From contig NC_134036.1 of assembly GCF_964204645.1 (NCBI RefSeq), forward strand, positions 1,612,001 to 1,676,000: a stretch of 64,000 nucleotides of DNA, written 5' to 3'. A program made the position numbers and the translations under genes. Below, in pieces: positions 18,768 to 44,582 of the stretch (positions are counted from its first letter, which is position 1; the number at the start of each line of letters is the position of its first letter). The notes under the pieces were generated by a model. The model ran no database searches. It saw only the letters and a program-made list of their open reading frames with translations, and was not told where the DNA came from. This DNA comes from Tubulanus polymorphus (taxonomy: Eukaryota > Nemertea > Palaeonemertea > Tubulaniformes > Tubulanidae).

Positions 18768-21700
18768 TTATTTGAACACGAAAAATATATCTTCGATAAG
18801 ACGTTGTTCATCTTCGTCCATTTGATCGGTAATACTGCAGTACTGGGAGTCACTGGGCGGTCGGTCGGAGTCGCTGTGAGTCTCCGGGACTCTGGAAGTC
18901 GCCGGTCGGTCGGAGTCGCTCGGAGTCGTCCCGATGACTCTGGAAGTACCGCAGTGTAGCTGTTGTTGTTTTTGACTGCCGGGTAACGATACGTAACTGG
19001 ACACGTCTAAACTATTGTTACCGTAATCAGGTGCAGCAGCAGCAGCAGCAGCTGCTGTAACTTCATTCAACCTTTAACACAGAAAACAAACCGATGTGAG
19101 ATTTTAAGATTCTAAGTTGCTCTTGAAAATTAAACTCATAACCGTAACCACAGCACTATTCAGCAACTGCTGCCCCCTGGTGTGAAACCATGATTAGAAT
19201 GAGGTAAAACTGAACTTACACTTTATGAGTTCGTTTTCTGTTAATCGGAACTGGAAGATTGCCTTGTCTCGTTGTGGAGAGACGAGGTTCAGGTATTTGA
19301 TCGGGACTTCGACCAATCCTGAAAATACAAAACAGGGCGTAGTAACATGTCTAAGGTGGTTCCACGATGAAGGGGTTAATTCTAGGCCGAGGGGCTGCAG
19401 GTTATAGACTACAGATTGTCTGAAGGGTTGGAGGTCCCAGACTGAAAAGTTGCAGATTTCTGGCTGTAGATTTTCTGAAGGTGGCGCAGGTTCCAGATTG
19501 AAAAGTTGCAGGTTTCTGACTGCAGATTGTCTGAAGTTTGTCTAGTGCAGCAGGTTCCAGGTTCTCACACATGAGACACTGACGGCTGTAAATACCTCAA
19601 CGCTGATAAATTTGAGAAACTGATTTCTCTCTCCGGTTCGCGGGGGTCAAGGTCGCGTCGCTGACGATTAAAACTCCTCGCTAAATTCATCAGTTCATCT
19701 TCTTCATCATCGTCATCATCATCATTCCTCCTTCTCCTTTCCTCATCGACTACGGGGTCCGTTGATGGAGTCGTCCCGCGTAAGGCTGTCATCTCAGTAC
19801 CGATATCTCGATATCTACGCGATATCTCATCCTCTATACCTGTAATTACACAAACACAATGTGATGATGTCATAGGGGGAATAAGAGGAGGCAGACAACT
19901 TTTTAGGAAATGTCTATGATCACTATATCAAATACTGATGATGTCATGGTAACCATCTTTTCCCATTACCGACATTGATGATGTCATAAGGGGATTTATG
20001 AGGACATTTTTTCAGGAAGTGTCTATGATCAAATATTGATGATGTCATAGTGGGATTTTTAGAGGCAGACATTTTCTCTGTGTCCATGCTGATGTCATAA
20101 GAGGAATTACGGGAGCAGCCATTATTTCAGGAAGTATTTTTAAAGAAAGAATTAACAGAACGTTTTCAATAAATTACTCGAATTTAAATCATCTTTTTTC
20201 TGTTGTTGCCGCTGACGACGAACAATCAATTCGGCCTCTTTCTGGCGCATCAGCTGTTCTTGTTTGCTCAACATGTCCTGTAGGCGGCGCTGCTCGGTTA
20301 TCAGATTTTCCTGAATCGCGTCAGAGAAAGAAAAGAAAGTTTTGAAGAAAATGAAGACGCAAATTTTTTCGAAAACTTTTAAAAAATCGAAACCTTTTCT
20401 TCCATCAATAGACGTCTTCTGCGACTGGGCGTCAGTTGTTTATATCGGTCCAGATAGGTGGCGCCACCGTCCGACGGTCTACGTCCCTCACTGTCGTCGT
20501 CAAGGGCGACGGCGTGATCGTGGAATTTCGTCGTTATCGACGTATCGTAATCAAACAATGGCTGATGCTGTTCCTGTTGCCACGGTAACTGCTGCCTATA
20601 TCCGCCGGCGTAACGATACGGACCCGCCGCGTAGTTATCCGATCGACCGATAGATGGCGCCGGTAGCTGGTAAACGGGATACGTCGCTCGCGGATCGTCG
20701 TACGGTAGATGGCGTTGGCCGCTGATCCACGCTGGTTGGTACGCCGCACCGGGTGGTACGGTATCGGCAGCGCTGCGCGGCGTATAATCGCTCTCATCGA
20801 CCGGCGTGTACCAGTTCACTCCGAACTCTGCTACAAAAAAAAAACAGCTCTTCGTGAACTCAAAACGGAAATTATTCAATTAACAAGTTTTTTGCTGAAT
20901 GAGGTTGAATTATGTAAACACTGACCGGAGCGTCGCGGACTTGAGGTTCGAATTGTTGCAACCTGTAAAATATTATAAACTCAAATCAAAAAACAATTCT
21001 ACTAACAATTAACATATTAAGCAACGTAGACTTGCATTTCCTGGAGGAAACTGAGGTTGGGTACTCAGTGGGTGAGGGCTGTGGGACAACAGGGTACTCA
21101 CCAAGTCCTGATTAACAGAGGCAGGGTTAAAATGGAAGGGTACTCACCGGGTCCTGATTAACAGAGGCAGGGTTAAAATGGAAGGGTACTCACCGGGTCC
21201 TGATTAACAGAGGCAGGGTTAAAATGGAAGGGTACTCACCGGGTCCTGATTAACCAAGAGGCAGGGTTAAAATGGAAGGGTACTCACCGGGTCCTGATTA
21301 ACCAAGAGGCAGGGTTAAAATGGAAGGGTTACTCACCGGGTCCTGATTAACAGGGGGAGGGTTAAAATGGAAGGGTTACTCACTAGGGCGTAGATGGAAG
21401 AGGGTTTGAAGGGTTGTCACCAGGGGGAGGGTGAATAGAAGGAGGTCCTGATTAACAGGGGGAGAGTAAACTGGAGGGGTACTGATGAAGGGGTACTCAC
21501 GAGGGAATGAGCAGATGGAAGGGTACTCACCGGGACGTGCTGTGCTGGTTGGTAACCGTTTGCGATTTCATGGTCGATCATATTCGTATAGTTCTGGTAC
21601 GGGTACGGTACTATAGGTGGCGCTACTACAACATTCTCTGTTAGTTGTTGTTGTTGTTGCTGTGGTAACAGGTCTCTAGGGGTTTCATTGTTGTAAGATG

Positions 21701-24429: not shown

Positions 24430-24439
24430 ATTCCGATAG

Positions 24440-27050
24440 TTGACCTAAATTGTTTAAATCTACCGCCAGGTGCGAGTAGGTTCGAATCCCAGTGTGTCGT
24501 TAATAACTTTGTTTTTATTTTATTAGGACAATTTTATGTTTTCTGTTGTTGGGTAATATTGTATATTTTACGGTCTCCCTCCATGTGCCACAGAATTAAT
24601 GGTTGTGAGGAAATAAAATCCTAATCTTTAGTCCCCACGAACATTTTCGAATGGGGTCGAACCCCGCCGTCTTCTCAGACTCCATAAGTGTTTCTACTCG
24701 GACTCGTCACAATCAAAATCCTTCGCTTAAATTGAACATTGGAAAGTTCGGCGAGATCTTAACGCAATTCTGCGAGGGGATGCGCAGGGACAAAAAAAAT
24801 GTCACGCATGCGTCCGCGTCCAATAGACCGTACCGGTAGAATCTGGGGCGCATTACACGTTGTATTAAGGCCCAAAAAATCAAGACCCGCTTTCCTGGTG
24901 CAGTAGCTATGGACCATGCCCTACAATTAGATTTTTTTCTGATTTCCCAGTGGGCCCGGCAAAATCGTCTCGCATCTAGGGTGTAGGGATGCGATCCAAG
25001 CCCTCGTCCGGACACTACAGCACCAACAAGAAAAAACCAATAAATTAAAAAAGCAAACGAAATTTGAGCAAACAATTTTATTCCCAGTAACATCGTTACA
25101 TCTATGTTAATAGTCATATTAATAATTATTATTATTGTCAGTGTCAGATTCAACCGACAGATGGCGCCATAGATAAGCAGGGTTTAAAAATGAAAAAGTA
25201 ACATCGTTTTCAAAAATTATATATGATCTCTTCGTGCCAAAGTTATGAAACCGGGCCAAATTATTCCTTTATTTATTATTATTCTAAATATTTAATCTCT
25301 ATGAATTTTAATTTTCGGACCCTCCACGTGATTTCCCCACAAATATAATGAACATCTTTCAATCAATCGATCCTTGGTTTTTCAAAAAATATACTCTTTA
25401 ACAAATTGACAATATATCGATGGGCTGCCTCGGACAATAATTTACTTTTATGATTAATTTCGATAAAAATAGAAAAGAAATACGCTATTTTTTCTTATTT
25501 TAGGGGTTCGAACTCAGTGCCAAATCATCCATTTTGTGAACTGAGCCACGCGAGGCTTATTTGCATATTAATTCGCTACTTAATTTATTCAGCATTAAGG
25601 TTCGAATCCCACATTTTTCTGAGAATCATCTACGTTCAAAGGGTGACATTTTATATAATTGAAAGCTTTGATATCTGAATAATTAGAACTCACAGCCTTT
25701 CTCCCGCAAATAGCCATCAATAACTGATATTGAAATGCGGTAAAAAAAAACAAACTAATTTTGTTTAGAAAATACTTAGTTTTGTGCTACATCAGTTTTT
25801 TGTCATTTGTTTAGTCATTAATTAAATGAAATCTGAGAAAAAAAATCATGGTCATTTTTCTTTTCCTTTCATGTTGCATAGTTTCGTTTATAAAGAAGAC
25901 TTTGAAATATATCCGGCGGTTTACTAAATACACGGCACATTGATCTACAAGCTATAGTGCTATTGAACACCGCTAGATGGCGAGTGCGAAGCCGTAAGAG
26001 AGAAAGTGGCCAGCTCGCTGCGTGGAGAAATATCTAACAGTTATCATTGTACATAGCGGTTTAGTTAGCAGGAGACTAGTGAAAGCATAGAAATATATAT
26101 CATCATCGAGTCCCTGATAGTTCCATAGTTTTAAGAGGGAATTTGGCACAGACAAAGGGTGTCCATCCAAACTGTTTGGTCCCTGTAAAATGGCATAATT
26201 TAACTGGCCCTGTACCATGGTTCTAAAACTTTGGTTAAAGTTAAGCCGTCAACCTGTATCATGGAACTCATTTTTGAACAGTAGACTAATGTTTACCACG
26301 GTATCAAAACACCGATTAACAATGAACTATTCACCTTTACAATGGCACTAAAACACTGGTTAAGGTTAAGCTATAAACCTGTATCATGGAACAGTTAATT
26401 ATCCATTGTACACCGTGGTATTAAAACACTGATTAACATTGAACTATCCACCTGTACCATGGTACTCGCTTATCAAACCGACCCCCGTGCTGTGACTCCG
26501 AAATTTCGTAATGGCGTTTGCTATGCGTTTGCTAAGGCTGTACCCTCTCCCCCTCTCCTTCCCGCACACTATCCGTGCATTGATTAATAAATAAGATGCT
26601 AATAAGAAGCATAGCGATCATGCATAAGGTCTCAATTGCACTATCAGCCGCTAGGTGGCAACACATGTGTTTTAAGGGCTATGAACACATATTCTCAATG
26701 CTTTGCATAATTGAATCCACACTTTATACGAAATTCACGTCTCCATATCTTTAGCCCCCCTCCGAGTTCACAGCGTTTCCGTAATAACCATACAACAGAG
26801 TTCCCCTAACACACGGCGCAACTGATTCCATATTTATACACCAGATGGCAGCATCGGACGACGTCCCCGTTATCATCATAGTCTCGCTCAGCGCGCATAG
26901 AAAGCAGGTTGTTTTTAAATAATACCACTTTGTATAAGCAACGATACTAAATATACAATTTATATGCATAATTTTTAGTAACCGATCGCGTTTTTTAAAC
27001 AGAATTTCATAATCAGCAGTTTGACAGTAATCCACTAGGTGGCGCGCGCG
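24440..27050. other. Intergenic region between hinderin and the calexcitin-like gene
   Basis: Holds tRNA-like SINE fragments with box B GGTTCGAATCC (about 24478 and 25609, plus strand) and a reversed box A/box B pair at about 25500-25560. There is an imperfect repeat structure at 26208-26465 marked by CCTGTACCATGG. CTCF-like motifs are at about 25970, 26648, 26839 and 27032. No exon is recognised. Confidence 0.4.
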
Positions 27051-27056
27051 CGTGCT

Positions 27057-30000
27057 CTACGTATATAACGGTTTTCCCAGTATATAGTTGCCCGGTTCGG
27101 TTTCGACGGCGCTGGTCAAATATTCGAACCACAACTTCTCAAATCGGTCTTCTGTGATTTTGAGTTTTGAGCTCGGGCTCAAAGGCGTAGTCGGTGTAAC
27201 TGGCTGCAACGATAAACAATAAACACATTCAATTAGAGCCCTAATAAAGAGACCTGGTCCGGGCCCTGTTTTAGAGATTGGTGTTACCTTTAACCCGGGG
27301 TTAACTCCATTGATAATGAGCTGAGTTAACCCCAGGGTTAAAAGTAATACCAGTCTTTAAAACTGAGCTCTGGGATTCCATAGCCAGGCGCGGATCCAGG
27401 GAATAAGGGAACTGACTATTATTGGGGAGGGCACTTTCTATGTCAAATCACGGCAAAAAGGGCACTTAACATCAAACTTGTGCAGGGTTTCGTACCGTGG
27501 CAATCTCAATGCCATCAGGTTCGAATCCCTGCCGAGAGGAAGGGGGCGGGTGATGTTTAAAGTTTGGATGATACACATACCTCGTTGGTAGCGGAGTATT
27601 TACTAGGCGACGGCGGGGTGTCGAACATACCAATCGATCGACTCAATCGTTCGTACGCGTCCTCGATATCGAAATCCGGTATTTCAAACGCCTGCAAACA
27701 CAACTTATATTCCTCTTTGTCGATCACTCCATCTCCTGCAAATAGATGGCGTATTTGTGAATTTAGTAGTGGTTGCATGGCTGTTGTAGGCTCCGTGGAG
27801 CCGTTTAGCTAAAGTAATGTAGACATTTAGATGCACTAAAGTGACATTGCATTTATAGGGACATTCCACGCTCGTGTGCCTAGTGGATCCTGTATTGACG
27901 CATTAGCTTCCCCAGTTATTCTCTGTGACTACGGGTGGAGAACCGACTTCACACTATAGCCACCTAGCGTTAATAACACACTGGCAAGTTACACAGTAAA
28001 TGTTGTGTGAACACTACAGATACATAATTTTCCCTTAGAGAAATATATAGATGTCGCTATTAGAGAGACACATTTTCACTGCAGCGCTCCTAGCGGATCC
28101 TCAATTGCCACAGTAGCAACGTATCTCGACTTACCGTTTACATCCATGCAGTTAAACATGAAATCCTTGAGATCTTTTTGGCACTGGTAATGAACTCTGC
28201 CGTCTTTAGACGTTTCAGGCCACTTGTCACCGGCCAGTTTTGCCGCCTCGACGAAATCTCCCCAATAATGCTGCCACTCATCTCGTCCAATCTGAAATAA
28301 CAAAATAGATTTAATGTCCCAATGAAAATATCCAACATCAACTTCATCGAAAGTCTAAGGCTCGACAATAAAATCCGAAATCTACAGCTGCAGCTTTCTA
28401 CATTTTCTTGTTTCTTGTAGGGAATTACAAACACCCTTCCACGAATGTGGCTGCCTCCATAAATCCCCCTATGACATCATCAAATTGTCTACTAGTGTTT
28501 ACGAACTATCGACACTTCTTGAAAAGATGTCTGCATCCATAAATCGCCATATGACATCATCAAATAAATATGGTGAATGTGGTTGCATTTATGACTATGA
28601 TATCATCGGATTTCTAAGGCTCAATATCAATTTGATGACGTCATATTTATGAAGGCAGATTAGGGGGAACAACGTATCCATTTGTTAAGCCTAAGTTGGA
28701 TTTTGGTACCAAAGTAGCCGGTCGCCTCTTCTTGGTGGGAGGTTTCACTTACGTTCATGACTAAAGCGTTGCTAACCGCTTTGTAAACCAATGTGCCTTT
28801 TATAAGTCCGGCCCATATGCTGGCGATTCGATTCTGGAAATCTTTGAAACCCGGATTCAACGGCGACCATTGTCGAATATTCGTTGCCAATTTCAACAAT
28901 CGGAAGAAGTCGTTATGATTCACCGTATCGCCGTCAGATGGGGCTACAAGAAAAATGGAATCGTAAATGAGGAGAGCGTATGTCGAAATGGTCGACTAAT
29001 GAATAAAGATTATCCTAACTTCGACACCCCTCGACCTTCTCCCAGGACGCACCCATAATAACCGACAACCAAACCCACAGACATGATATTTGTAAGAGTG
29101 CGTTGCCCTCTACCCCTGGGCCCGGTTTCATAGACTGAGTATCAAAGTTATCCCTAGGGGTAATTCCTCAATATGGCTGACAAGCACCATAGTAACGATA
29201 AGAAACCATGGTTATAACTGAACAAATTTCAAAATGTTCCCAGGGATTATTTTTCTTCGACATCTATGAAACCCAGCCCTTCTTCCTACTTATATGGAAG
29301 GCCATTTAAAGAAGACTTTACGTAGCCTTGTTGTAGCCGCTTAATGATATTGACTTAGGTAGTAAGGTCTATTGACGATATCCGTGGCGACTTGTCGTTC
29401 AATTCCGTGACCTTAATCAGTATTATTACGCGTCTCAATCCAAAACATGTCTATCCTTGACTGGGAACCTGTCGACAAGAACTGCATTTCAGTGCAAAAT
29501 CTGCTTAATGGGGATCGGATGATTATCGAATCTTGAATAGAGATATAACGATAAGGGCGACCCACATTGGAATACATTGTACGTGTAAAATTAGTTGCAG
29601 CTTTATACTGTACAAACAATAAGGGCAGATGGCAGTTTTCACTAGGAAAACTGCAGGGTTTGACATTTACTATGAACCCGACATTACAGCCAACAGTATA
29701 TCATTGCATTCCGGTACCTGGCTTATGACATTGAAGTTAGGACGGACTGCACCGAAGAGGATCCTGAGGCTAGTGTGGGTAGAGATGCGTTCAGCGAGGG
29801 CCGTTGCAGATACAAGAAGAATGGAGGATGGAATATGAGTTCTGCTAAAAAAAGCTTCAATGGTTTCAATAGTGGCGAGATTGACAGAAGGCAATACGGA
29901 CCACGAAAGAATCTGGACTTGGGAATACAGTAGATTAGGAAATACCGTCTTCAACTGGCTAGAGATCGTACAAATAACAACAACGAGCCACAACAAGAGA

Positions 30001-33000
30001 TTTACTTGAACGTTCATTGGCAAAACCGAACCGCATCAGCAGCAGCAAAAAGAAGCTGAACATGGAAGTATTATAGGTGACGAGAAACCTCACCTTGAAC
30101 TGGCAGAAAATTATAACAATTGACAAGAGAAGCCTCTTTTACACCTGTACAGAGTGACTTTCCTACTGGCAGCATACTGATCAAGAACAAAAAGTTGTCA
30201 AGTGAAACTGGGAAAGGTTATCAGAGCAGAGGAACTATCAGAGCATAATCATCTTGAAGAGGACTTTCATATTTGAAACACACCTCCTGCAATTGTAAGT
30301 AAGAAACCGATAGGCCTTCTGTGATCTCCTTTAAATGTAACATAGATATTCACTTTTCTTCTCAATAATGATTTAACAGCTAATGGTCGCGTGCGTGTAT
30401 ATCCCACGACGGAGGATGATAATCCTGATCAGTACCATCCTTATTGTCAATGCGATGATTTGGTACGCGTTCTGGTGGCGAGGGTACGAGACTGTCTCGA
30501 TGATAAGTCGTCGCAGCAATGGTAGTTCAGAGGTCGTTAGGAAAATGTCGCTGTCATTTGTCGGAGATATAATGGTTCACGACGCCATTTTGAAATCTGC
30601 TTACGACAAAAACACGTCTAAATACGACTTCAATCCGATCTTTAGGTATTGCATTTTTCCTCTTGACAATTCTCGATCGAAGCTGATCAGGAATGGGCTT
30701 AAGTTGATCGTACGATCGACTTTGGGGAGAGATTGGATTAGGTCAAATAATTGTTTCAACACCCAAGGGTATGGTTAGTTGCTTATCCAATGGGTTTTGG
30801 CGTGGTCAATACCAAGGTTTAAAAACGGTCTTAAATAATATTTGGTATAAAACTTGCCAATAGAACCGCGATGGACAATAGACTACCATTTACTCTCTGA
30901 ACCTTTATTCATTTCCCATATATACTTTCAGACACGTTAAGCGCCACCTGTCGGCCACGGACTTCACTATCGGTAATCTAGAGGTAGTCGTCGGTGTTGA
31001 ACCGTACGGACAAGTTAAATCTAATTATCACGCTCATCCGCTGTTTTCAGCGCCACCTGAACTCGTTGAAGCATTACGTAACGCCGGATTCGACGTCTTA
31101 GTAACTGCCAACAATCACGCTACCGACCTCGGCGACGAAGGCATCGTTAAAACGCTACAAACGTTAGACGCTTACGGTCTACGTCACACGGGCACGTTTG
31201 CCAACGCGCCGGATCCAAACTCGCCGTTGATTATAGAAAAAGGTGGCATGCGCGTCGCCATCTTGTCTTACACGAAACGATCCCCGCTTAGTACAGAACA
31301 TGTATCGCCCCCTATCGTCGTGAACTATCTCGATAAAGAGAGGATACGCGACGACGTGCGTGGCGTGAGGGACTCCGGGGTCGACGCGATCGTGGCCGTC
31401 GTTCACTGGGGCAAGGAATACCAGGAACATCCCGATAAACTACATCAGCAATACTGGTTAGACTATCTAAACGAATTAGGGGTGAAGGTCGTTATCGGGT
31501 CGCATCCTCACGTGTTGCAGCCGATGATCTGGAACAGGGCAGACGACTCTTTAGTCGTTTATTCGCTCGGTAACTTCCTGGCGAAGATGCACCACGGCAT
31601 CGTCATGCTCAAAGGCGCCGCCATTGTTCGCGTCGACCACGAGCTGCGAAAAGGTGGCGCCACTACTGTTGTAAATGTCAATACGACCGATTTAGTTTTC
31701 GAAAGTCGAATTTCGATAACGAATGTCGATTATCGATTGACGTATGTCGATTCGACTAGTGATGGTAAATTTTCGGTGATTCCCGTTCGGGAATTCGCGC
31801 CGCGAAAACTCGAAAACAGCGGCAACAACGAAACCATGACGAATTTACAGACGTTCGTTAAACAAGCAACTGAACTTCTAGACAACGAGAATGTGAATGT
31901 ACCAGAAATTGTGTAGAGAATTTGAACCGTAGTTTGCTCAAAATATGGTTTAAGGGGCCGGTTCCAGTTTCTAATGTCATGGCTTAGACTAATTCTACAT
32001 TCCTGAGGATATGGTTAAAGTAAACCATCTGGGGCCCGGTTCTAATGTCATGGCTTAGACTTAAGAATAGTCTAAGACCATCTTAGTTATAAAGCTATTC
32101 TAACAGCTTATGACAAACCCTGTGATTAAGACTACTTTTTAAGAACCGGGTTTGAGCGGCTGTTGCACATTCAAACCACAACATTCCTGAAGAAGATGGC
32201 TATTAGGTTATAGTCGAAATGACGAATCAATGAATAATTGGCACAAAATGACATTCTATTATCTGTTACACGTTTTAGGTTAATCTGACTTGGAGATCAA
32301 GACCTTTAGGCCGTGTCTATGGTTTAGGCGTATCTACGTAGTTCACAAGCTGGCAAGAAATGTCGCCGGCCAAATACCTTATACAGCCATTACCACCATT
32401 CAATTATGAATGAAGTTGCAATGATTTATTTATTTAGTTACCCTCCTGGTAAGGAGGGCTTCAAAAATAGTCTATAGACTCATTGATTGTTCCTCTCCAC
32501 GGAAATCTTTAGTAAAAGGCGAAAGATTTAAACGCGGTTGAAGAGAAACCAGAGTGATTCAGCTGACAGTCCTCGAGGTATTTATACCCCGGATCCATTG
32601 CCTTTATAAACGGTGTTTTACTTTCGAATAATATGAATATTTTCTACCACCAAATTGTCGTCAAAGTCAGAAGTTTCCACAGAGTTCAGTTGGAATTTTA
32701 CTCAGATTTAAATCCAATTTATTTAGTTTAAAACCCAATTTATTCAAAGTTTAAAATATCTAAAGTTAATTTTATTTCATCAAAATGAAAATCAAAAAGC
32801 GCGACATTTCAGGTGTGACGACTGATGACGATCTGCTGTGAGAGTTCGAAACGCCGTGCTTTGAATAAATAAAATTCGTTTGTTTTTTAATCTTTTAAAC
32901 TTTCTTGGTAGGTTTAAAGTGTTTGATATTATATTCTTCAAGTCTTAGAGTACTGTAACTAATTTAGTAGTCACGCTGAGAAGCCGATCCCATACTGGAA

Positions 33001-36000
33001 GGACAAAACACAAACCCTGGGCCATGACTTAAGTGGTCCAATAGTGGTCTTAAATCCTTAGATTGGTAGTAAAATGTTACATCGTCTATAACACCAAAAT
33101 GGTCTTAGACTGGACTTAAGCGACGCAAAGATCTAAGATTTAAGATGGCTCCAGATCTAGCTATGCCAAGCGGATACTGACTAATTTAGTAGTCACGCTG
33201 AGAAGCCGATCCCATACTGGAAGGACAAAACACAAACCCTGGGCCATGACCATGGACGTATAAACTAGATATCTAGTTTATACGTCCATTGCCATGACTT
33301 AAGTGGTCCAATAGTGATCTTAAATCTTTAGATTGGTAGAAAAATGTTACATCGACTATAACACCGAAATGGTCTTAGACTGGACTTAAGTGACGCCAAG
33401 ATCTAAGATGGCTCCAGATATAGCGATGCCGAGTGGATGCTGGTCCACGATAATCAGGACATGGTGTCCAATGGGACAGAATTTAAGAGCTGGGTATTCA
33501 TATTATCTTGAAGGTTACCCTCCTGGGTAGGAGGGCTTCAAAAATAAGTCTATAGACTCATTGATTGTTCCTCTCCACGGAAATCTTTAGTAAAAGGCGA
33601 AAGATTTAAACGCGGTTGAAGAGAAACCAGAGTGATTCAGCTGACAGTCCTCGAGGTATTTATACCCCGAAACCATTGCCTTTATAAACGGTGTTTTGAT
33701 TTTGCAAAAAATGGTTAAAAAGTTATTTAGACATTTTCTACCTCGAAATCGGTGTCAACAATTTCGTCAGATTTCTATTAGCAAATTTATTTCCATTTAT
33801 GTTCGTTTATCTTGAGCTAATAGACAAACGATGATGATGTCCTAGTAACAGATAATGTCAATTTTCACTCTGCTAAACAGATAATGCCGCGCTTTCCGTG
33901 AGTACTCGGTAAATTCCGTAAATCTCCGACCGACATGCTCGGCTAACAATGACACTTGTCAACCTACATTGCGAATCTTTCGATTGCCTAGTTTAACAAG
34001 AGAATGTTTGTCAAGATTTCGTCCAACCGTTCACGATAATCTTCCCGACTCTTTGATCGCGTTATGAATAAACAGCAATTTTGATCTCGAAACTTCATTC
34101 TTGTTGGTTGGGTTTTTAATCCAGCGAAGAAAGGAGTGGTCTCTAGTGTAGTGAAAGTGATCCATTTGGCATTCCACAAGTACATTATATATACCTTCAA
34201 TATGAAGTGATCGTTTGATCTCCAAAGAGATCACTCGACCTAAATTGCTCACTGTAAAGGTGTCACCTCGCTTGTTGACTGGGTCCCCATCAACTTTTGA
34301 CGTCAAGTTAGTCAGAATTGGGCCAGCCATTCGAAGTAAAATGTCGATATTAAAATGCCACCAGACATAGTGCCAACAACTTCATCCACATGACACACAA
34401 CCTTTCGCCTTCCCTTTCCTCCACAATTATACCTTCAAACAAATTTCCCAGGAATTTGGGATGACGATTCCGATGTTCAGTAATGAATGAAAGATCTGAG
34501 AACATTTGAGAGATTAACTTCCCTTCCCCCAACAGCAACTGATGCTGATGCAACTCGACATCGAAATGAGATGTTAAGCAATGATTGAGGACTAAGTGAT
34601 GATAGAAGAAAAAACCGATGCAGATGCAACTGATGCTGATGCAGCTGATGATGATGCAGCTGATGATGATGCAACTGTAATGTAGGACGTACTTGGCAAA
34701 TAAGCATTTTTAACCGGGTCGGAATATATATAATTAGCTGACATTAACGGATAAAAAGTCGACTAATATCGTCTGCTCCTGATGTAGTTCTAAATGCATT
34801 ATCTATGTGTATATTCTCTATACAATGGATAATAATGCGATAATGCTAATCTGTTCAGGCCAAACAAATGAACATTCGTGTTTTACAGTACGAGAATAAA
34901 ACCGCAGCAATTAATGGCAGATAATTATTCGGCTACAACCTGCTAACGATACTGGACCTAGGGCTTCTAAGCAGTTTGGCAATTCGTGGCATCAACAGGG
35001 TAGGCCGGGTGATTCTGTCCATGTTCAACGAGAGGGCTATGCCATTATTTGATCACGTTGGGTTGGCTCAGCCTGGTATGAAATGCATCGTTTGGTATGG
35101 CAATACACTTGAGGAATGTTGTGAGTTATGATAAGCTCACTGTGAAGATCAGAGGCAACTTGAGCATCATCGGCTTCATGCCACCATCCAGGATGCCAGC
35201 GTCACCCCATGCAGTGGCGAGATGGATGAGTTTGCAGCCTTTGTCGGACACTTTGCCGCCCATAAGCTTGCGATACGTTCATCTAATACGATGGCCTAGC
35301 ATAAAAATGCTGGATATGATGGGGCTTGCTCACTACATGGTGAATTATTAGGACTATGATTGACATGGGAAAGATGATAACCATGTATCAAGGGCTACAT
35401 GTTACTTAGGATGGCCTTGTCTGAGCATTTGGAATGCATGCTGCTAGTTAGAATGGCGTTGGTAGCAAAGGTTTTTCAACACACAAAAAAACGTTCCTGT
35501 ATTTTTTGTTCATGGTCTAAAGGATCCCCAGGCTACTGTTTGTGTATATGTATGTGTGGCCTGTTAGCCGTCAATTCAACCCCGATAATTGCGGCTATAA
35601 ACTACAATTAAAGCACTGATATATCATTAGTAGCCAGATTATCCGGGGTGTTTTTTTAAACACGGCGTTGTTTATGCGAGGCCTTGACGCGAACGAGAAC
35701 CAGGGTTTAAATCAAACAAAACACACCATAATAATTGAGGCGGGTGAAATTAGTGTATCTATGACGACGGCCCTAACGACCCATAAAACAAGAGAAAACG
35801 GCTAATATTGTTGTTACCAATCGAATGTCGCCAAAGTTGGAAACGCACGCGGACCCACCTATCAGAATTCAACTTTCACTACTACTGCATTTAATATATC
35901 AGCTTTCACTCTCAGCATTTCATCAGCTTATGCTCACTGTTCAAACAAACACATTCAAACTGTGTTTATCCATATATGCATTGCAATATGATTTGCATTA

Positions 36001-39000
36001 AACACACGTACCTATATTCAAGCAATGTATCTATATGGAATGTATGTATGCAAATTGATATAGGATGTGCAGTACTACCCTAGACAGTGACAGCCATCTG
36101 TACAACACTACCGCAGACAGTGACAGTCATCTGCACAACTTACACCGTGCTCTATCTATCCCCTGGCAGTCTACTATCTCAAAACTCCGGTGTCCAGTTT
36201 CATTAAGGTTAGATAAGAATCAGTGTTAAAATGAATTCATTTCAAACCTTATATAGTCAAATGTCAACCACAAGACTCCTGTTTTATAGATATCGTGTCT
36301 TCAGAATATACTTAACGATATAGCTGAAACTCTTGCCGTCTACGGTGGTAAGCATTCGGACAGATGACAACATTGACGAATGAACCGATCAGATTTTCAA
36401 GGGAAATATCCCCAATGAAATAATCTCTTCAGACCATTTGGCAAAACATTTTGCTCACAGCATAACTTCACAAATGACTGGTAGACCGGTAGCAATCTCA
36501 GTATTTTAGAATTAATTTCAGGATAAAAGTAAAGAGGTTGAGTCTGTTTCAGTAGTGTTTGGTGTATAATGCAATAGGCTACATATCAAATCATTCGAAT
36601 TAGAATAATTTGCGGATGAAATTGCGAGGTCGCAAAACTGTCAGACATTTATCATAACGCATACAATTGATTCCCTTGGGACGACAGTCATATTGAGTCT
36701 GGGAGTGAATTTGGAACAGTCTGTACCGTCTGGCCATCACCTCTAAAAGCATCGAAGCTTGAGCTCAAGCCCAGTCCACATTGAGGGGAAAAGCTCAAGC
36801 TAAACCTAGTCTTTACTGAGGGAACAAGCTCAATATAAACCCAGTCCACACTAAGGAAAACAAGATGGCAGTTGTAGTTCACATAGAAAATTCTCCCCAT
36901 CCCCTCACAGCTATGGTATCAGCACCTTCAAATAGCTTCCCCTCCCCTCACAGCTGCTAGGGTATCAGCACCCGAGTGGTGCTACCTTCAAATAACTTCC
37001 CCTCCCCTCACAGCTATGGTAGTAGCGCAGATAACTTTCCCAGAACCCCTAAGCTCACCAACCCCCATTACTAAAGGTTAGTCAAAGTTTATTTCTCTGA
37101 GGGTCACGCGTGCGACGTTCATTTCAATAACAAATGAATAATAAAACACTTGAAGTTCAACAGACGATACTTCAAGTTCTAACGGAACCGAATTTTTGAC
37201 TGCAAATTTAGAAATCCATACAGCACACCGTGAATCAAACTATGCGTGTAAATATGAATACATGAATTAGGTGTACCTTTTGTAAATGCATTATCTACAG
37301 CGAGAAGCCTGGTAAAAAGTGCTCGCGACCACAACATTGTGCTGTGCAGCGCCTTTCAAAAAGCAATATAAGAAGAACTGAACTTTTCAATGTTGATTCG
37401 ATCTAATAAAGACAGTATAATCGTCAGCGCAGTGTGTGCATGAGCATGAATCTATTTTCGTTTTTGTTAAAATGCGTCGATGCAAAAAAATGGCAATCGC
37501 GAAAAAGAATCGTGTTTGGACAAAAATCGTTGTCAGAACGGTATGAAAAATTACAGGTCTATTCGATTTTCTATATATATATATATAATATATATAAATG
37601 AGGACAGTCCCAATGGACTCTAAAGCTGCTAAAAAGGGTAATCGTTCGTGGTTCCGTAAATAGGAAAACTATATTTTATATATGTATATTTATAAACCAT
37701 CTACGTGTATATTTGTCGTAGGCCAACGTTAAAGAAAGTCAATGGCAAAGGAGACCGGAATGGTCGGGATGAGTGAACCTTTTCCCATTCATACCGCCAT
37801 ACCTAGATCTGTCTAAATAAAACAGTTCGAACAGTTCTACTTTACCGATACAACTCAATAAAAATCATAAAACTCAATAAATCGCTAGCAAATAAAACTA
37901 TGGAAGTGGTTCTCGGAAAGAGATATGAAAAACTAATATTATTGGATTCAAGTGTGAATGTGAGGGTTCGCGTATCGAGAGCGCGCGTTTAGCAAATAAA
38001 GCGTTCACAAGAAGAAAAAGTCGATCGACATCGCTAAAAGTCATATGACACATATTAATTGATATAGAATATTCTCGCTCTTCTCGGGCAACACAAGTCT
38101 TTACTGAGATATTAATATCGAGGTTATGTTTTCAGAGATTCGAGTAGATCAACAATATTGTTGAAGAGTCGATAGGTCTTCAATAGTGTAATCGGTCGTA
38201 TATATGTGAATGTATAAATTCCCTTTCCCTCACCCTCTCCACTCATCGACTCGTCACCCGTATGCTCACAGTACCATTCTTTATCTTATTTCCCTCTCCT
38301 CGCCCTCACAGCTATGGTTGCATAACCACCAAATAACTGTTCCTCCCCTAACAGCTATATGGTAGCAGCACCCTAGTGACGTTACCTTCAAATAACTTCC
38401 CCTCCCCTCACAGCTATGGTATCAGCACCCTAATGACAATATCTTGCCCTCCCCTCACAGCTATGGTATCGGCACCCTAGTGGTGTTACCTTCAAATAAC
38501 TTCCCCTCCCCTCACAGCTATATGGTATCAGCACCCTAGTGACGCCACCTTCAAATAACTTCCCCTCCCCTCACAGCTATGGTATCAGCACCCTAATGAC
38601 AATATCTTGCCCTCCCCTCACAGCTATGGTATCAGCACCCTAATGACAATAACTTCCCCTCCCCTCACAGCTATGGTATCAGCACCTTAGTCGTGTTACC
38701 TTCAAATAACTTTCCCTCCCCCCACACTGTCCCTATCGTCCCTCCATTTCTTAAAATACATGTACGATCAAGCTACCCATCTCTCCCCTCTCTCCAGAAC
38801 CTTATCTCCAGTCCCCACCATCCCAAACTCTCCCTATCTCTCCTCCATATCGTACTAAGTATAAATTAGCCCCTCTTTCCTGGAAGTTTCCAATCATTTT
38901 CGAGTCTCTGGCGATGAAAACATCGAAACGTAAGAAAAATGAATTTATCTCTAAACCTCATCAATTTTGGGTTTGCTTTTTATATCAACTTCGAAAATCA

Positions 39001-42000
39001 AACTCTACATCATCAGGCGAATGCATCGAATCAGTGACGATTAAAATTTCGAAACGTTAGAAATATACTGTAGATTAATATAAACCTCATCAATTTGTGG
39101 GTTCGCTTATCAACTGAGGAAATCAAACTCTACCAGTGATAACATCTTCCCTCTATCTGTCCCCCTCTCTCCCCAATCTCTCATCTGTTTTATACCTTTT
39201 CCCACTCAATCCCACCCACTCTGATATAGAATCACTGTTCAGTCTACCAGATTTTTTCGCCCATCCATTGCAGCCTACGTGTTGGAACGCATATGTACAA
39301 TCATACAGAGTGAGAGAGAGAGAGAGACCACTTATCACCAGCAAGCGACAATTTCAATTTTTATCGTTCATGAAATCAAGGGGTAATTTGCGCTGCGGTC
39401 CTATTTCAGGCGGTGGCTTATTAACAACAGACCTACTAACCAAAAAATTAGCTTTGCTATACATATATTTATTGAGAGGTCGATGCAACCAAAGTTCCCC
39501 GTTATATATACACACATAAAGACGTGTCTCCTCTGAACTATTGTCCCCTGATCGTAGCGGCTGCTATTATACACCACAGTTAATGATGAGTAGTTTATTG
39601 TGTATCGCGTAAAGTTGAAACCATCTTCCTACAAAAGGTGATCTCAATACGTTAACCAGATTCCGCGTGGCTTTTATAAACCCTCTATACAAATATGGCA
39701 TTTATAAAAAGAAATAGTGACTATTACTCCTGTAAAGAACAGGCCTTCGATATCTTTTTTTTTTTTGTTGTTGAAAATTATGACAATTCTGTAGAAGTAT
39801 AACAACCCAAATCTACCGATCAGATAGATAAACAAGGTTAATCCCTATTGCAAGATGAAAAAAATCTCATCAAATTGATTTGATGATATTGAAACCTATG
39901 ATTTGATGAAATAGAGACCTTACTTGATGATATAAAGACCTAAACAGCTGTTAAATAGGGTACAACAATAGTGCAACAAAATGACCATCATTTAACAGTC
40001 AAATACATAATCGCTCTCATATCTCGTATATTGAATACACAAATGTAAATTGAATCTCAATGGTATCAGTTTCATATATAATTTTACTGTTAGCAAGTGG
40101 AGACTGATAGAGTATTGCACCACGTACAGATCGAGCAAATCCCCAACTATTAATCTCTCCCTCTCCCTCTCCGGCTCTCCGGCTCTCCGGCTCTCCGGCT
40201 CTCCGGCTCTCCGGCTCTCCGGCTCTCCGGCTCTCCGGCTCTCCCTCTCCCTCTCCCTCTCCGTCTAAGCTCATTGTGGCTCTATAACCAATCTAACAAC
40301 TTAAGACCAGTCTAAGCTCATCATGGTTCTATAACCAATTTGGCATGTTTAAGAACGGTCCCATTTTTAGACTTGCACTTAATCCGACTCAGGTAAACAA
40401 ACGTATAAATTACGAAAAAATGATCGAGATAAATCAACACGGAGAGAAAGGCTGCAACAGAGCGTCGTACCGGTTAACGCCGTTACCATGGATACTACGT
40501 GTACGCTACAAGATTTATCACTGAATGACGTTGTTGTCGTCTAGTCTAAAGAGTCGAGGCTCATCTGGTGCAAATTCGTGTCGCCCAATAATGCGTTTAA
40601 TGATGAATTGCTCGCTTGTGAATGTGTACCGGCAGAACGCAATAATCGAAGCAAATAATGTGGAGCATATTGAAGAACCTCAACATCAAAGTCAAAATGC
40701 AAAATCAAATTATTCGTCGATTAGATGCAAGAACCTCGATAGCCTGAAATCAAAATACTCGTGGATTAAATGCAAGAACCTCGATATCCTGAAATCAAAA
40801 TACTCGCGGATTAAATGCAAGAAGAACCTCGATATCCTGAAGTCAAAATACTCTTGGGTCAAATGCAGGAACCTCGAAATCCTTGGGTCCAAAAACAAGT
40901 ATGGATTAAATGCGTGGTTAATAGGTTTTTCTTGAATGTTGTACTGCGATGCAGAGACTCTCATCCAACTCCTCCAATTTACCGCTTATATACAAGACCT
41001 TAAACAAAGTGCTCGACCCAAGCTAGACTTTCCCAACTATATCCTATACTTAGAGCTTCCCATATTCCCCTTGAACCACTCAACATTGCCATTTTGTTCA
41101 TCTTATATATCTTACTCTCAAGAACTCGTTCCTTCCTGCCACCAACCTCCCTGTAATCTCCCATTAAAAACTGTTCCAAGTCAATGCCATGAATGACGTT
41201 AACTCAACCTCCTTATTCTGAACTCACTTTATGAATGCTTGGCACCCTTTTACCAGCGTGTTATATTTGTTGGCCATGCCAGCCAAGCCATGCACGTTAC
41301 GATGCAATCATCATAAACTTTTTCTTTTAATCAATTTTTACAGTAGACTTCTCCCAACTCGGTATAGTACCGATGTCGTCGGCACACCAATTAATTTCAG
41401 CTGGTAAATGAAATTAGATGTAAAAGGCTTTTGTCACACGAGGAATACATTTCAAAATCCTACTCCTTGCTTTCGAGCATTTTGTAGACAAATTCTACTT
41501 GTTATTTCCATGGACTTTCGTTTAACAGTCGATGGTATTTCAAAACACGACAACTTTACCGCAGTAAGAGATGGAGTATTTCAATCTCAATGAAGGTATT
41601 TCGTCTCACCTCCTTCCATCAGTATTTTACAACTTCATTTACCAGTCTCAATTTACTGCAGTAAGAGACAGGGTCTTTCTCAACCCCAAGGAAGGTTTTT
41701 CATTTCGCCTCCCTATACAATTCACAACCTTAGGAGTCTCCAATTTACCGCAGTTAGGGAAAGAGTATTAATTCTAACCCCAAGGAAGTTATTTCTTCAA
41801 ACCTCCCTATACTTCACAACTATATTACCAGTCTCAACTCAACTGCAGTAAGACATGATTTCAGGAGGTCGCTGCACAACCCAAATGGAAGGTCTATGGT
41901 TGCAGCACCTCCCTACTCATCAATATCATTTGTCTACAACTCCAGGGTAGAATTTACTGAGTAAATTTTTACCAAAAACTTTTACCAAGTGAGGCAGAGT

Positions 42001-42147
42001 CTACTATAATCGCTTTCCAAATAAGACAACAGCCTTTACGCCTGGCGACTTTGTCCATTTTGCTGTGCGTTACTGCGAAGCATATTATAGGCCTACATAA
42101 ATAGAATATGATCACATGATTGTCTTAAAGCCTACATTGGAATATAC

Positions 42148-42178
<31 letters not shown>

Positions 42179-44582
42179 TCGAAGCAAACCGACTATTGAC
42201 CCCCAAAATTCATTTTGTTTAACATATGTTTAAAAAAGACACTATACATTACAACAAAAATCCATGCAAAAACCACATGAACACAATATACGTGATTATT
42301 ATACAACACCACCGATATTATTCAGAACAAAAAATTAGCGATTTAAAAAAATTGAACAAACAAACAAACAAACAACAATGACAAACGGTTATGAAAATAA
42401 TATGTCGTCGCACGGCAACAAGCATTTCGATTCGGAAGAACAAACGCGTTCGGCAATTTCCGTGACGTTGTTCGGCCTATAACCGATCGACACGGAATTA
42501 GCCGAACGGTTTCGTAAACAAATCATTTCAAACAGTTATCAAATGAGTATATTATCTATCATTATCATTATAATCATTATTATCATTATTATCATTAATC
42601 ATTGGTAAAGCCCTGATCCGCACCTGCCAGCGGTCGTAACATAGCTCGATATAAGTTGGGGAACTGAATTTTGAAAAACAAATCGCCATAAGGCTAAAAA
42701 AAATTGATACCTTGTTTCTCCGCTCTGCTGAGCTTAAATGTTGACCCGGCCGGCCGCCTATCTACCCTGTACATTACTTTTTTAAAAATCGTGATCAATT
42801 TTACCATAACAGACCCGGCCGCTATAGAAATGAACTGTTTATAAATTTTATCATATTTTACTAATTTTACTATGACCCGGCCGCTGCGGAGAAACAAGGT
42901 ATCATTTTTGTTTAGCCTAAATTGTACCCCTATTTGGTTGATATACCTAGAGCTACCACTGGCACGTGAGGTGGTGGGAAAGTGAATGTAGAAAATGTAG
43001 GCCAATGAATCTGTGTGACGTCATCGTAAATTCGTTGATATTCGAATCGGTGCGCGGGCGGCGGCGGCCGGAAATTGCCGAGACATCCCGATATAGTACC
43101 GACGATAAAACCTGACATATCATCAGAGAATCCCAGCGGCGGATGTCGGTATTTTAGTGCTATGGTTTTGTTCATTTTTTTAAAAATCGCACCTGACTCG
43201 AAGAATTTCGATGCATTGGCCTGCAGCAGCTGCTGCTGATAGTATCGAAATAACGCGCATGACCCCAAAAACCCAGCAAATCATCGATTTTGCGCAGATT
43301 GATTTTTTTAAGGAATTTCTCAGAAATTAAAAAAGAGATAAAAAGTAATTTATTATTTTTTTAGCGCCTGAATTATAAATCAAAAGTCCGCCATAACGCT
43401 GATAACGTTTTTAATGCAAGTGCTCGCTAAATGCCAACATTTTTTTTTTTCAGAAAACAAATTAGGCCCAATCTAATTCAAATTCGATGGTAGAAATATC
43501 ATTCTTTATGACGCCGCCAAATCAGTTTTAACGCCATATTTTGCACTGGTCCCAACAATCGCATTATAAACTACTTTTACTGTCTCAATAGACACATTTT
43601 TCTACCAACTCACAAAACTGTGGAACTGGGGCCAAAACCGACTCGATGATATTGCTGGGTCTGTTTAAGGAAATGCACTAAAGGTCTCATAGGTTACAGA
43701 AGAAAGATTCAAATTTTCAAATGTTGTAAATAATATTGCGAATTTAAATTAACTAAATTGCTTTTTTTTTGTTTTTGTTTTTTGTTGTTGTTGAGTTTCA
43801 AAAGAGAAGAACATACTTTTGGTTAATTATAGATTTTTTGTATTTAAACACATTAAATACATACACATGTGGTGGTAACCTTCAAGTGTGAACCCTATAT
43901 TCAAAAAAATAACATACAAAATCAATTTCATTTAATCAAACAGCGAAGCAGCGGGGGATAATAACAAAACCGTTTCATCAGTTTCACGAAACAGTTAAAA
44001 TCAAATTTCTAGAAATTTTCGAAAGGATAGAGAAACAAATGTATCGTTTTATTTTCGCCTAAGCCGCCATTACTGTCCATCAGTCCCTGGAACCGATGGG
44101 TTTTTTGCCAGAAGCCACTCTTGCCGCTAGGGGGCAGCACAGCTCCACGCGTAATATAATTAATTAAACGCATTTAAAAAGCCGTTTGGTGAAGCGGGAA
44201 AATCTTCGCCGTCAATTTCCAGCAGACAACATTGAATAAAAAGCCGGTGGGGGGGGGGGCGTGTGATCAGTGAGCTAAGCGCGATCAGGGGGGTGGGGGC
44301 AGCAGGTGCGTACTGAAAATACCGCTAGGTGGCGTGCATTATACATATATATTAGAAAAACTTACCGAAAAAGGCATCGAACATGTAGTCCACTTTTTTC
44401 CGTTGGAACTCGGTGAGTTTACTCAGACCCGGCGATTTAGGTCGATCCGTCGGGTAAGGTATATGCAGTAAGTCTAAAGCGACCCCTGCCGCCGAATTCC
44501 GGCGAATTCCCGAGCCGGGTATCACATCTGACTCGTCTTCGTTGGTCGTATGTCCGTTCTTAGTTTCGGTTGCCGCGGCCAT
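27057..44582 (-). CDS. Calexcitin/sarcoplasmic calcium-binding-like EF-hand protein, 5 exons
   Basis: Minus-strand exons: 44582-44366, 28943-28753, 28291-28135, 27735-27581, 27203-27057. Phases match, giving 288 residues. ATG 44582-44580 is preferred (GCC follows; the TTG upstream is not a start). Residues 1-55 are a low-complexity extension not seen in short calexcitins. The core begins LTEFQRKKVDYMFDAFF (EF-hand 1 helix). EF-hand 1 is degenerate (APSDGD instead of Asp at position 1). The second site has no clear loop. EF-hand 3 is canonical (DVNGDGVIDKEE, 186-197), and the tail has LWFEYLTS and GNYILGKPLY, as in the family. These proteins buffer or sense cytosolic calcium in invertebrate muscle and neurons. 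Intron 1 is about 15.4 kb and contains three other genes. It is more like calexcitin than calmodulin or troponin C. Confidence 0.85.
27255..27368. mobile_element. MITE-like inverted repeat
   Basis: GGGCCCTGTTTTAGAGATTG, then GTTACCTTTAACCC, is matched by GGGTTAAAAGTAATACCAGT, then CTTTAAAACTGAGCTC. It lies in the last intron of the calexcitin-like gene. Confidence 0.55.
28430..28640. repeat. GATGATGTCATAGGGGG family array (reverse orientation)
   Basis: Units read TCCATAAATCCCCCTATGAC, then ATCATCAAATTG, the reverse complement of the family at 19855-20140 and 49925-50300. Located in intron 2 of the calexcitin-like gene. Confidence 0.7.
29119..29283. mobile_element. MITE with GGGCCCGGTTTCATAGA termini
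   Basis: GGGCCCGGTTTCATAGA on the left and TCTATGAAACCCAGCCC on the right, about 165 bp. It lies inside intron 1 of the calexcitin-like gene and is non-coding. Confidence 0.75.
29640..30380 (+). other. Probable 5' UTR exon and intron of the CapA-like gene
   Basis: A GTAAGTAAG donor at 30295 and the acceptor TTTAACAG ending at 30380 bracket an 86-base intron just before the CapA-like start codon, implying a non-coding exon upstream. The upstream boundary and transcription start are not visible. Confidence 0.4.
30383..31916 (+). CDS. CapA/PgsA-like protein (poly-gamma-glutamate capsule family), two exons
   Basis: Coding exons 30383-30645 and 30932-31916 join in phase (AG|A, Arg88) to 415 residues, stop TAG. 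A basic N terminus and hydrophobic stretch at about 12-32 predict a signal anchor, as in bacterial CapA/PgsA. The PGA_cap metallophosphatase-like motifs are in order: FVGDIMVHD (59-67), GNLE (102-105), ANNHATDLGDEG (147-158), VHWGKEYQ (245-252), GSHPHVLQP (277-285) and YSLGNFL near 296. Putative metal ligands Asp62, Glu105, Asn149, His246, His279 and His281 are all present. In bacteria this family takes part in poly-gamma-glutamate synthesis or anchoring; cnidarians have a PgsAA thought to come from bacteria. The substrate here is unknown. It has an intron and a 5' UTR intron, so it is a resident gene and not contamination. It lies wholly within intron 1 of the opposite-strand calexcitin-like gene. 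Confidence 0.92.
31950..32160. mobile_element. GGGCCGGTTC MITE fragments
   Basis: GGGGCCGGTTCCAG at about 31955, a second start GGGGCCCGGTTCTAATGTCA at about 32032, and a tail AAGAACCGGGTTTGAG near 32150. Probably two related copies, one nested or truncated, downstream of the CapA-like stop codon. Confidence 0.5.
32439..32558 (-). ncRNA. RNU5: U5 small nuclear RNA, copy 1
   Basis: Read on the minus strand, it matches U5 snRNA of the major spliceosome throughout. The 5' end region is ACTCTGGTTTCTCTTCA. Stem 1 follows, TAAATCTTTCGCCTTTTACT, with the invariant loop 1 GCCTTTTAC (32520-32512) that holds exon ends during splicing, then AAAGATTTCCGTGGAGAGGA. The Sm site is ATTTTTGA (32468-32461), and a 3' hairpin CCCTCCTTACCAGGAGGG ends the gene. 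Length is about 120, normal for U5. It is intact, with no loop or Sm-site damage. It lies in intron 1 of the calexcitin-like gene, on the same strand, and has its own promoter-like elements. Ends are placed by homology to within a few bases. Confidence 0.95.
32579..32619 (-). promoter_or_regulatory. snRNA promoter of U5 copy 1 (PSE-like and TATA-like)
   Basis: Two blocks upstream of the U5 start are conserved in the second copy at identical spacing. One is a TATA-like TATAAATA at 32586-32579 (about -21 to -28). The other is AAAACACCGTTTATAAAGGC at 32619-32600 (about -42 to -61), where a proximal sequence element is expected. Sequence diverges between the two copies just beyond -61. Confidence 0.65.
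32955..33440. repeat. Direct tandem duplication of about 220 bp
   Basis: Copy one spans about 32955-33175 and copy two about 33178-33440. Both begin CTAATTTAGTAGTCACGCTG and continue AGAAGCCGATCCCATACTGG. They differ by scattered substitutions, a small indel (GATTTAAGATGG against GATGG) and a 48-base insertion in copy two at 33243-33298. The interior CTTAAG motifs recall the GGGCCGGTT MITE family. Confidence 0.88.
33243..33298. mobile_element. 40-bp palindromic insertion with 8-bp target duplication
   Basis: GCCATGAC at 33243-33250 is repeated at 33291-33298. Between them, 33252-33289 is a perfect 38-base palindrome (arms of 19, starting ATGGACGTATAAACTAGAT). The sister copy near 33020 has a single GCCATGAC and no insert. 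An 8-bp duplication is typical of hAT-type transposition, so this may be a minimal non-autonomous element or its remnant. Confidence 0.75.
33515..33636 (-). ncRNA. RNU5: U5 small nuclear RNA, copy 2
   Basis: Nearly identical to copy 1 about 1.07 kb away and on the same strand. Loop 1 GCCTTTTAC is at 33598-33590 and the Sm site ATTTTTGA at 33545-33538. There is one extra T before the Sm site, and the 3' hairpin is CCCTCCTACCCAGGAGGG, changed in the loop but still paired in the stem. Differences fall in tolerant positions, so both copies look functional. It is separated from copy 1 by the 220-bp tandem duplication. Confidence 0.95.
33657..33697 (-). promoter_or_regulatory. snRNA promoter of U5 copy 2 (PSE-like and TATA-like)
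   Basis: TATA-like TATAAATA at 33664-33657 and AAAACACCGTTTATAAAGGC at 33697-33678, at the same distances from the U5 start as in copy 1. Confidence 0.65.
33980..36690. other. Intron region with unassigned open stretches
   Basis: Minus-strand frames at 34031-34330 and 34350-34553 and plus-strand frames at 35097-35351 and 35399-35611 are open but match no family I recognise. They are broken relative to each other. The segment 34890-35560 has non-repeat, coding-like composition without a sustained frame, so it may be a decayed retroelement or pseudogene. Short CAGCTGATGATGATG repeats sit at about 34620-34680. Confidence 0.25.
36890..37030. repeat. CTCACAGCTATGG family minisatellite, short array
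   Basis: About two to three units of the same 57-bp family as 9860-10480. Confidence 0.8.
38320..38720. repeat. CTCACAGCTATGG family minisatellite
   Basis: About seven units, with variants reading either CCCTAGTGACGTTACC or CCCTAATGACAATATC. Confidence 0.88.
38890..39135. repeat. Two-copy direct repeat
   Basis: Two copies of about 115 bases share CATCGAAACGT(A/T)AGAAA, then AACCTCATCAATTT, then TGGGTT(C/T)GCTT, then AAATCAAACTCTAC. Confidence 0.65.
40155..40262. repeat. CTCCGG-rich simple repeat
   Basis: Eight or so CTCCGGCT octamers flanked by CTCCCT hexamers. Confidence 0.92.
40684..40890. repeat. About 48-bp minisatellite, four copies
   Basis: Units of TCAAAATACTCGTGGATTAA, then ATGCAAGAACCTCGATATCC, then TGAAA. 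The open frames on both strands here follow from the repeat. Confidence 0.85.
41550..41870. repeat. About 85-bp degenerate tandem repeat
   Basis: Repeated motifs TTTACNGCAGTAAGAGA, then CAACCCCAAGGAAGG, then TCGCCTCCCTATAC. Confidence 0.55.
42707..42903. mobile_element. MITE with ATACCTTGTTTCTCCGC termini
   Basis: The left end ATACCTTGTTTCTCCGC and right end GCGGAGAAACAAGGTAT are perfect inverted repeats about 195 bp apart. The interior carries repeated CCCGGCCG motifs. It lies in intron 1 of the calexcitin-like gene. A degenerate relative is at 17140-17327. Confidence 0.85.
44124..44336. promoter_or_regulatory. Two CTCF-like motifs beside the first calexcitin exon
   Basis: CCGCTAGGGGGCAGC at 44124-44138 and CCGCTAGGTGGCGTG at 44322-44336 fit the bilaterian CTCF core CCASYAGRKGGCRS or come close. 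They sit just inside intron 1 near the promoter. Binding is inference. Confidence 0.4.

Follow-up and report, generated by a model that had tools for sequence, protein, structure and literature searches.

How an animal genome came to carry an intact gene of the bacterial CapA/PgsA capsule family, and what the product of such a gene might do, are the questions raised by a locus in the nemertean Tubulanus polymorphus. We analysed a window of 64,000 nucleotides around it (contig NC_134036.1, positions 1,612,001 to 1,676,000 of the forward strand), and all coordinates given here are positions within that window.

Gene structure and genomic setting

The original prediction placed a CapA/PgsA-like gene at 30383-31916, and translation showed these coordinates to be exact. 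The gene has two coding exons on the forward strand and a product of 415 residues by translation. Its features, and those of the antisense gene that surrounds it, are as follows.

30383..30645, + strand: coding exon 1 of the CapA-like gene, residues 1-87 plus the first two bases of codon 88; carries the membrane anchor and the GDIM..H motif
30646..30931, + strand: coding intron of the CapA-like gene, 286 bp, GT-AG, phase 2
30932..31916, + strand: coding exon 2 of the CapA-like gene, final base of codon 88, residues 89-415 and a TAG stop
30551..31586, + strand: PF09587 PGA_cap domain, residues 57-306, with the intron inside the span
30416..30478, + strand: transmembrane anchor predicted from hydropathy at about residues 12-32, following RRR; putative topology N-in, type II
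30295..30379, + strand: candidate 5' UTR intron, donor GTAAGTAAG, acceptor AACAG
44366..44582, - strand: first coding exon of the calexcitin-like gene
28944..44365, - strand: first coding intron of the calexcitin-like gene, 15,422 bp, with the CapA-like gene inside it on the other strand
28753..28943, - strand: exon 2 of the calexcitin-like gene
28135..28291, - strand: exon 3 of the calexcitin-like gene
27581..27735, - strand: exon 4 of the calexcitin-like gene, forming an EF hand together with the end of exon 3
27057..27203, - strand: last coding exon of the calexcitin-like gene, carrying the stop

The coding intron predicted at Arg88 splits that codon AG|A; it has GT-AG borders, and the frame stays open over both exons. 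All five motifs that had been named as intact hallmarks of the family were found in the translation (GDIM at residues 61-64, NLE at 103-105, NNHATD at 148-153, HWGKEY at 246-251 and GSHPHVLQP at 277-285), and the predicted membrane anchor agrees with a hydrophobic stretch at residues 12-30 (mean Kyte-Doolittle 2.2) that follows RRR. Upstream of the coding region, the splice sites make an intron in the 5' UTR plausible: the candidate donor, GTAAGTAAG, lies at 30295 and the exon would resume at 30380. When the 5' end is read as spliced, an in-frame stop stands a few codons 5' of Met1, so that Met1 would be the first ATG. Downstream of the stop codon, neither AATAAA nor ATTAAA occurs on the forward strand in 31917-32600, an interval that extends beyond the nearer of the two antisense U5 genes. 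The exons of the CapA-like and calexcitin-like genes are CpG-rich, with observed/expected ratios of 1.71 and 1.49, respectively, and the ratio for the whole window is 1.01.

On the minus strand, five collinear, GT-AG-bounded exons encode a calexcitin-like product of 288 residues. Searched against PDB, the spliced protein matched calexcitin at E 9.2e-13, followed by juvenile hormone diol kinases and a sarcoplasmic calcium-binding protein (2sas), and two EF-hand models scored above their cut-offs at the same place. A three-frame Pfam search of the minus strand over 20001-30000 found an EF hand only, below threshold, and a PDB search with one calexcitin-like exon piece returned no match. Because the exons were picked by tblastn with a squid calexcitin as the query (best E 0.005), exon choice and calexcitin identity are not fully independent of each other; the open frame over five GT-AG-bounded exons is independent. 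Judged by its sequence, the antisense calexcitin-like gene is real. Exon mapping also agrees with the prediction that the CapA-like gene sits entirely inside the first intron of an antisense EF-hand gene; this first coding intron measures 15,422 bp. Nested genes are common in animals.

Within the same calexcitin-like intron, the minus strand carries two U5 snRNA genes of nearly the same sequence (32440-32557 and 33517-33635; 96.2 and 92 bits), and their orientation is convergent with that of the CapA-like gene. About 60 bases upstream of the two copies are nearly identical, including a TATAAATAC box, as if both carried a promoter. Elsewhere in the window lie an RRM_7 exon at 52552-52992 on the forward strand (E 3.6e-17), which we read as belonging to a CPEB-type gene, and a tRNA gene at 355-427, also on the forward strand (69.4 bits). 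Open frames of 534-690 codons with SLSPSIS-type repeats, in the minus-strand reading of 59976-62088, look to us like a very long simple-repeat, low-complexity array and not like genes; within it, at 60001-62000, GC is 0.59 and GC skew 0.91. With its calexcitin-like gene, RRM_7 exon and U5 snRNA genes, the window reads to us as animal-type chromosomal sequence.

The capsule family and its bacterial neighbourhoods

PF09587 (PGA_cap) spans residues 57-306 of the CapA-like protein and profile positions 2-254 of 255 at E 4.8e-68, which rules out a chance open reading frame; the score is 229.8 bits, against a curated cut-off of 27 bits. The original prediction had asked what polymer the protein handles, poly-gamma-glutamate (gamma-PGA) being the one suggested. 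That suggestion is not supported, for gamma-PGA or for any other polymer; what the sequence points to is a metal-dependent phosphoesterase-like fold.

We consider it unlikely that the protein serves in a gamma-PGA pathway of the animal, in the PgsA/CapA role proposed for cnidarian nematocysts. The Pfam family is named after capsule synthesis, passages in PMC5566210 and PMC3815933 report gamma-PGA in cnidarian nematocysts, and a passage in PMC4670088 calls the prokaryote-derived pgsAA of jellyfish essential for PGA synthesis. However, a figure legend in PMC3815933 likens PgsA/CapA itself to protein phosphatases, PgsB to the ligase FolC and PgsC to an N-acetyltransferase domain, and a myxozoan study (PMC10454682) ties gamma-PGA to transglutaminase and gamma-glutamyltranspeptidase.

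The surroundings of bacterial relatives also weigh against a gamma-PGA role. We searched plasmids, phages, bacterial and archaeal genomes and viral contigs, and from the bacterial/archaeal scan, in which 580 stretches were confirmed, used the best 80. A PgsB P-loop motif, run without a positive control over ORFs of at least 150 codons (531,678 bases, 80 loci), was found at 0 of these best 80 of 580 loci. At 12 of the 80 we also read the opening 70 residues of every ORF by eye and recognised neither PgsB nor PgsC. Among the same best 80 of 580, other motifs pointed to folD at 18 loci (Bacteroidales-type or other Bacteroidetes), a PiT phosphate permease near the CapA-family gene at 10 (L005, L006, L010, L012, L017, L020, L021, L028, L036 and L050, all Cytophagales-type except L010, which is of Bacteroidetes), a PdeM phosphoesterase at 10, partly the same loci as for PiT, and Ffh at none. 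Tested with NCBIfam, one PdeM protein scored 214.3, above the cut-off of 150, and one PiT-type permease matched PitA at 418.4, below the cut-off of 800. Nothing firm follows from these neighbourhoods as a clue to the substrate.

Active site and proposed enzyme

We aligned the CapA-like protein with 78 bacterial relatives, namely the best 80 of 580 minus L038 and L047, for which ORF extraction gave fewer than 250 residues. All 78 relatives share H66, E105, N149, H150, D153, H246, G248, H279 and H281 with it, and 77 of them share D62. The motifs GD..H, NLE, NNH..D, HWG.EY, GxHPH and LGN are all kept, each position being shared by 74-78 of the 78 relatives. Because the invariant residues have been retained on a long branch, selection for catalysis very probably acts on the gene. 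That retention implies selection also argues against the gene being an untranscribed relic, as do two open exons and intact splice sites, and we regard a relic as very improbable.

Among solved structures the closest relative by sequence is the lasso-peptide epimerase MslH (PDB 8gq9), at E 2.9e-12 when the protein is searched alone and 1.4e-19 when a profile of five sequences is used; YfkN is also touched by this profile (E 0.0047). As described in a passage of PMC10406935, MslH has a calcineurin-like fold and a single Ca(II), whose ligands are Glu44, Asn87, His259 and His261, and it has the His/Asp pairs His88/Asp91 and His295/Asp11. Seven MslH residues from that description align to E105, N149, H150, D153, H246, G248 and H281 of the CapA-like protein; for Asp11 the match, to D62, is by motif only. 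Of the eight catalytic and metal-binding residues so described, seven are kept. The exception is His261, which is replaced by G248, and the CapA-like protein further differs from MslH in having H279, two residues before H281 (GSHPH).

The kinship with MslH and the seven shared residues would fit a CapA-type enzyme that was acquired deep in animal history and became a C-alpha epimerase of secretory-pathway peptides, making D-residues in peptides that are secreted; a lumen-facing enzyme would meet such peptides. The extra GxHxH histidine H279 and the glycine in place of His261 are, however, read as a two-metal phosphoesterase pattern, and the protein falls below the cut-off of the NCBIfam MslH model NF038314 (54.7 bits against 700). 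We hold an epimerase to be highly improbable. Beyond a few cases, little is known of how invertebrates make D-residue peptides enzymatically, and if the epimerase reading were true the CapA-like protein would be a candidate for such an enzyme.

The GxHxH pair H279/H281 may correspond to His175/His177 of YmdB; Asn40 of YmdB has no equivalent in the CapA-like protein, where V106 is found, nor in MslH. D62, E105, N149, H246, H279 and H281, which are all present, would make up a putative two-metal ligand set, assigned from sequence.

Our best guess, made from the sequence, is that the CapA-like protein would be a type II membrane protein, lumen-facing or extracellular, with a calcineurin fold and metal-dependent hydrolase activity. 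The N-terminus would stay cytosolic, residues 12-32 or so would anchor a single-pass type II protein, and the catalytic domain and C-terminal extension would face the lumen of the secretory pathway or the outside. A phosphoester-type substrate would be hydrolysed using two bound metal ions, which the six ligands listed above would hold, and the H150/D153 pair would act as general acid/base. We infer both the type II topology and the phosphoester substrate, and hydrolase chemistry is not assured, given that MslH is an epimerase. N-glycosylation sequons, counted as a sign of a lumenal domain, gave no signal (4, where shuffling predicts 2.85), and their density is as high in 22 of 91 relatives from the bacterial, plasmid, phage and viral-contig rows. 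The conserved metal-ligand map gives exact residues for mutation.

Bacterial relatives, origin and known animal cases

The two best plasmid matches are Bacteroidota CapA proteins (41.7 and 40.5% identity over the domain), the best match in the phage collection is an unverified faecal scaffold (40.9% identity), and, by record title, Bacteroidota account for 71 of the 80 loci among the best 80 of 580 bacterial/archaeal stretches. Viral contigs gave no relative in a first scan and ten loci in a second, with alignment; the best of these, L085 and L086, reach 36-37% identity. Among the matches listed, the nearest bacterial protein is 39-40% identical over 310-350 columns and 41-44% identical over the domain alone. 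In L005 and others the alignment extends to residue 414, past the Pfam domain. By sequence, the best similarity is with Bacteroidota-type CapA, which describes likeness and not proven descent.

We built three trees. A quick one of 87 rows covered 86 of 94 loci, including four of the ten viral-contig loci, and left out three loci of fewer than 250 residues and five that were near-copies or far viral sequences. A careful tree of 49 rows covered 48 of the 94 loci after near-copies, viral, phage and some plasmid rows had been removed by hand. A third, also careful, with a bootstrap that had not settled, had 50 rows, drawn from 41 hand-picked loci of the 94 and eight further, distant plasmid/phage matches; the second and third trees took in no viral-contig loci. 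In all three, the CapA-like protein forms a long branch (end branch 1.76 in the 49-row tree) and is held by no starred set. The 49-row tree sets seven Firmicutes/Ignavibacteria-type rows apart at 100/99, and a 92/98 branch (not starred) has on one side 39 mostly Bacteroidota rows, a side that excludes the window protein, L030 and L035.

Constraining the CapA-like protein with the seven Firmicutes/Ignavibacteria-type rows was not rejected by the AU test (p-AU 0.389), nor was placing it outside all 41 others (p-AU 0.558), for which the likelihood was slightly above that of the free tree. As neither placement is rejected, the three trees and the AU tests single out neither a donor phylum nor a named donor clade. 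A weak pairing with a Delongbacteria protein, L030 (90/73 with 49 rows, 88/60 with 50), is not taken as a result. The idea that L030 and L035 are themselves animal contigs was also dropped, their neighbouring ORFs reading as bacterial.

The trees place the CapA-like protein in no sampled bacterial family, and not, as the original prediction had allowed for, inside one bacterial contaminant clade. Because its long branch lies inside no sampled family, a recent transfer from such a family is unlikely. An old transfer from bacteria is the likeliest origin; we infer both the transfer and its age. An ancestral bacterial gene of the CapA family, Bacteroidota-like, would have been acquired long ago by the animal lineage, would later have gained at least one intron and would now lie nested antisense in the large calexcitin-like intron. 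Together with the enzyme proposed above, this makes up an explanation that, taken whole and with its mechanism, we see as an even bet.

Bacterial contamination or mis-assembly has next to no credibility: all protein matches come from bacterial, archaeal, plasmid, phage and viral-contig records, these being the collections searched, but the intron interrupts a conserved block of the gene, the gene sits between the exons of an animal-type gene in one contiguous window, its GC3 is neighbour-like (0.565 against 0.554 in the single neighbouring gene compared), and even the nearest bacterial protein listed is that distant; we reject it on gene structure and tree. We are almost certain that this is a real, resident PF09587 gene in an animal genome.

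The original prediction stressed an animal copy outside the cnidarian setting; such a copy is not new, given a PF09587 gene of the cyst nematode Globodera rostochiensis, GROS_g07961, which a table in the section of PMC4901422 on horizontally acquired genes gives as 'candidate PolS polyglutamate synthase'. The 'polyglutamate synthase' label in that table may derive from nothing more than what the family is called. According to a passage in PMC4670088 that cites Denker 2008, pgsAA was acquired by a jellyfish ancestor from a prokaryote, and the title of Denker 2008 on jellyfish pgsAA stands in the reference list of PMC5566210. PMC4877951, PMC3189188 and PMC10014300 brought nothing further on animal CapA-type genes, and among the paper titles listed none concerned a similarly nested CapA gene, which does not prove absence. 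For an animal CapA gene and for transfer from bacteria there are precedents, and the case for a polymer is weak. CapA-domain annotations exist in other marine invertebrates, and we take jellyfish pgsAA to belong to PF09587. If transcribed and conserved, the Tubulanus gene would bring an intact enzyme of the CapA family into the set of bacterium-derived genes in animals, and it would allow a clean test of whether animal PF09587 genes have a single origin and of their role.

Compared with known systems, the CapA-like protein is 36-40% identical to Bacteroidota-type CapA (L005 of Cyclobacteriaceae; L001, Bacteroides finegoldii WP_195398935.1), with which it shares a PF09587-type domain, the invariant residues and the C-terminal extension. 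It differs from this type in an extra loop (the GQVKSNYHAH region), in its intron and in its N-terminus, where RRR and an uncleaved-looking anchor stand in place of what, in L005, L010, L013 and L020, reads like an export signal that is cleaved off. Bacillus PgsA presumably belongs to the same Pfam family, by name. The setting of PgsA/CapA in the Bacillus gamma-PGA operon is different, no PgsB or PgsC partner having been recognised near the closest bacterial relatives (PgsB by motif among the best 80 of 580, PgsB and PgsC by eye at 12 of these). Jellyfish pgsAA and Globodera rostochiensis GROS_g07961, as the passages cited above present them, resemble the Tubulanus gene as animal genes credited to transfer.
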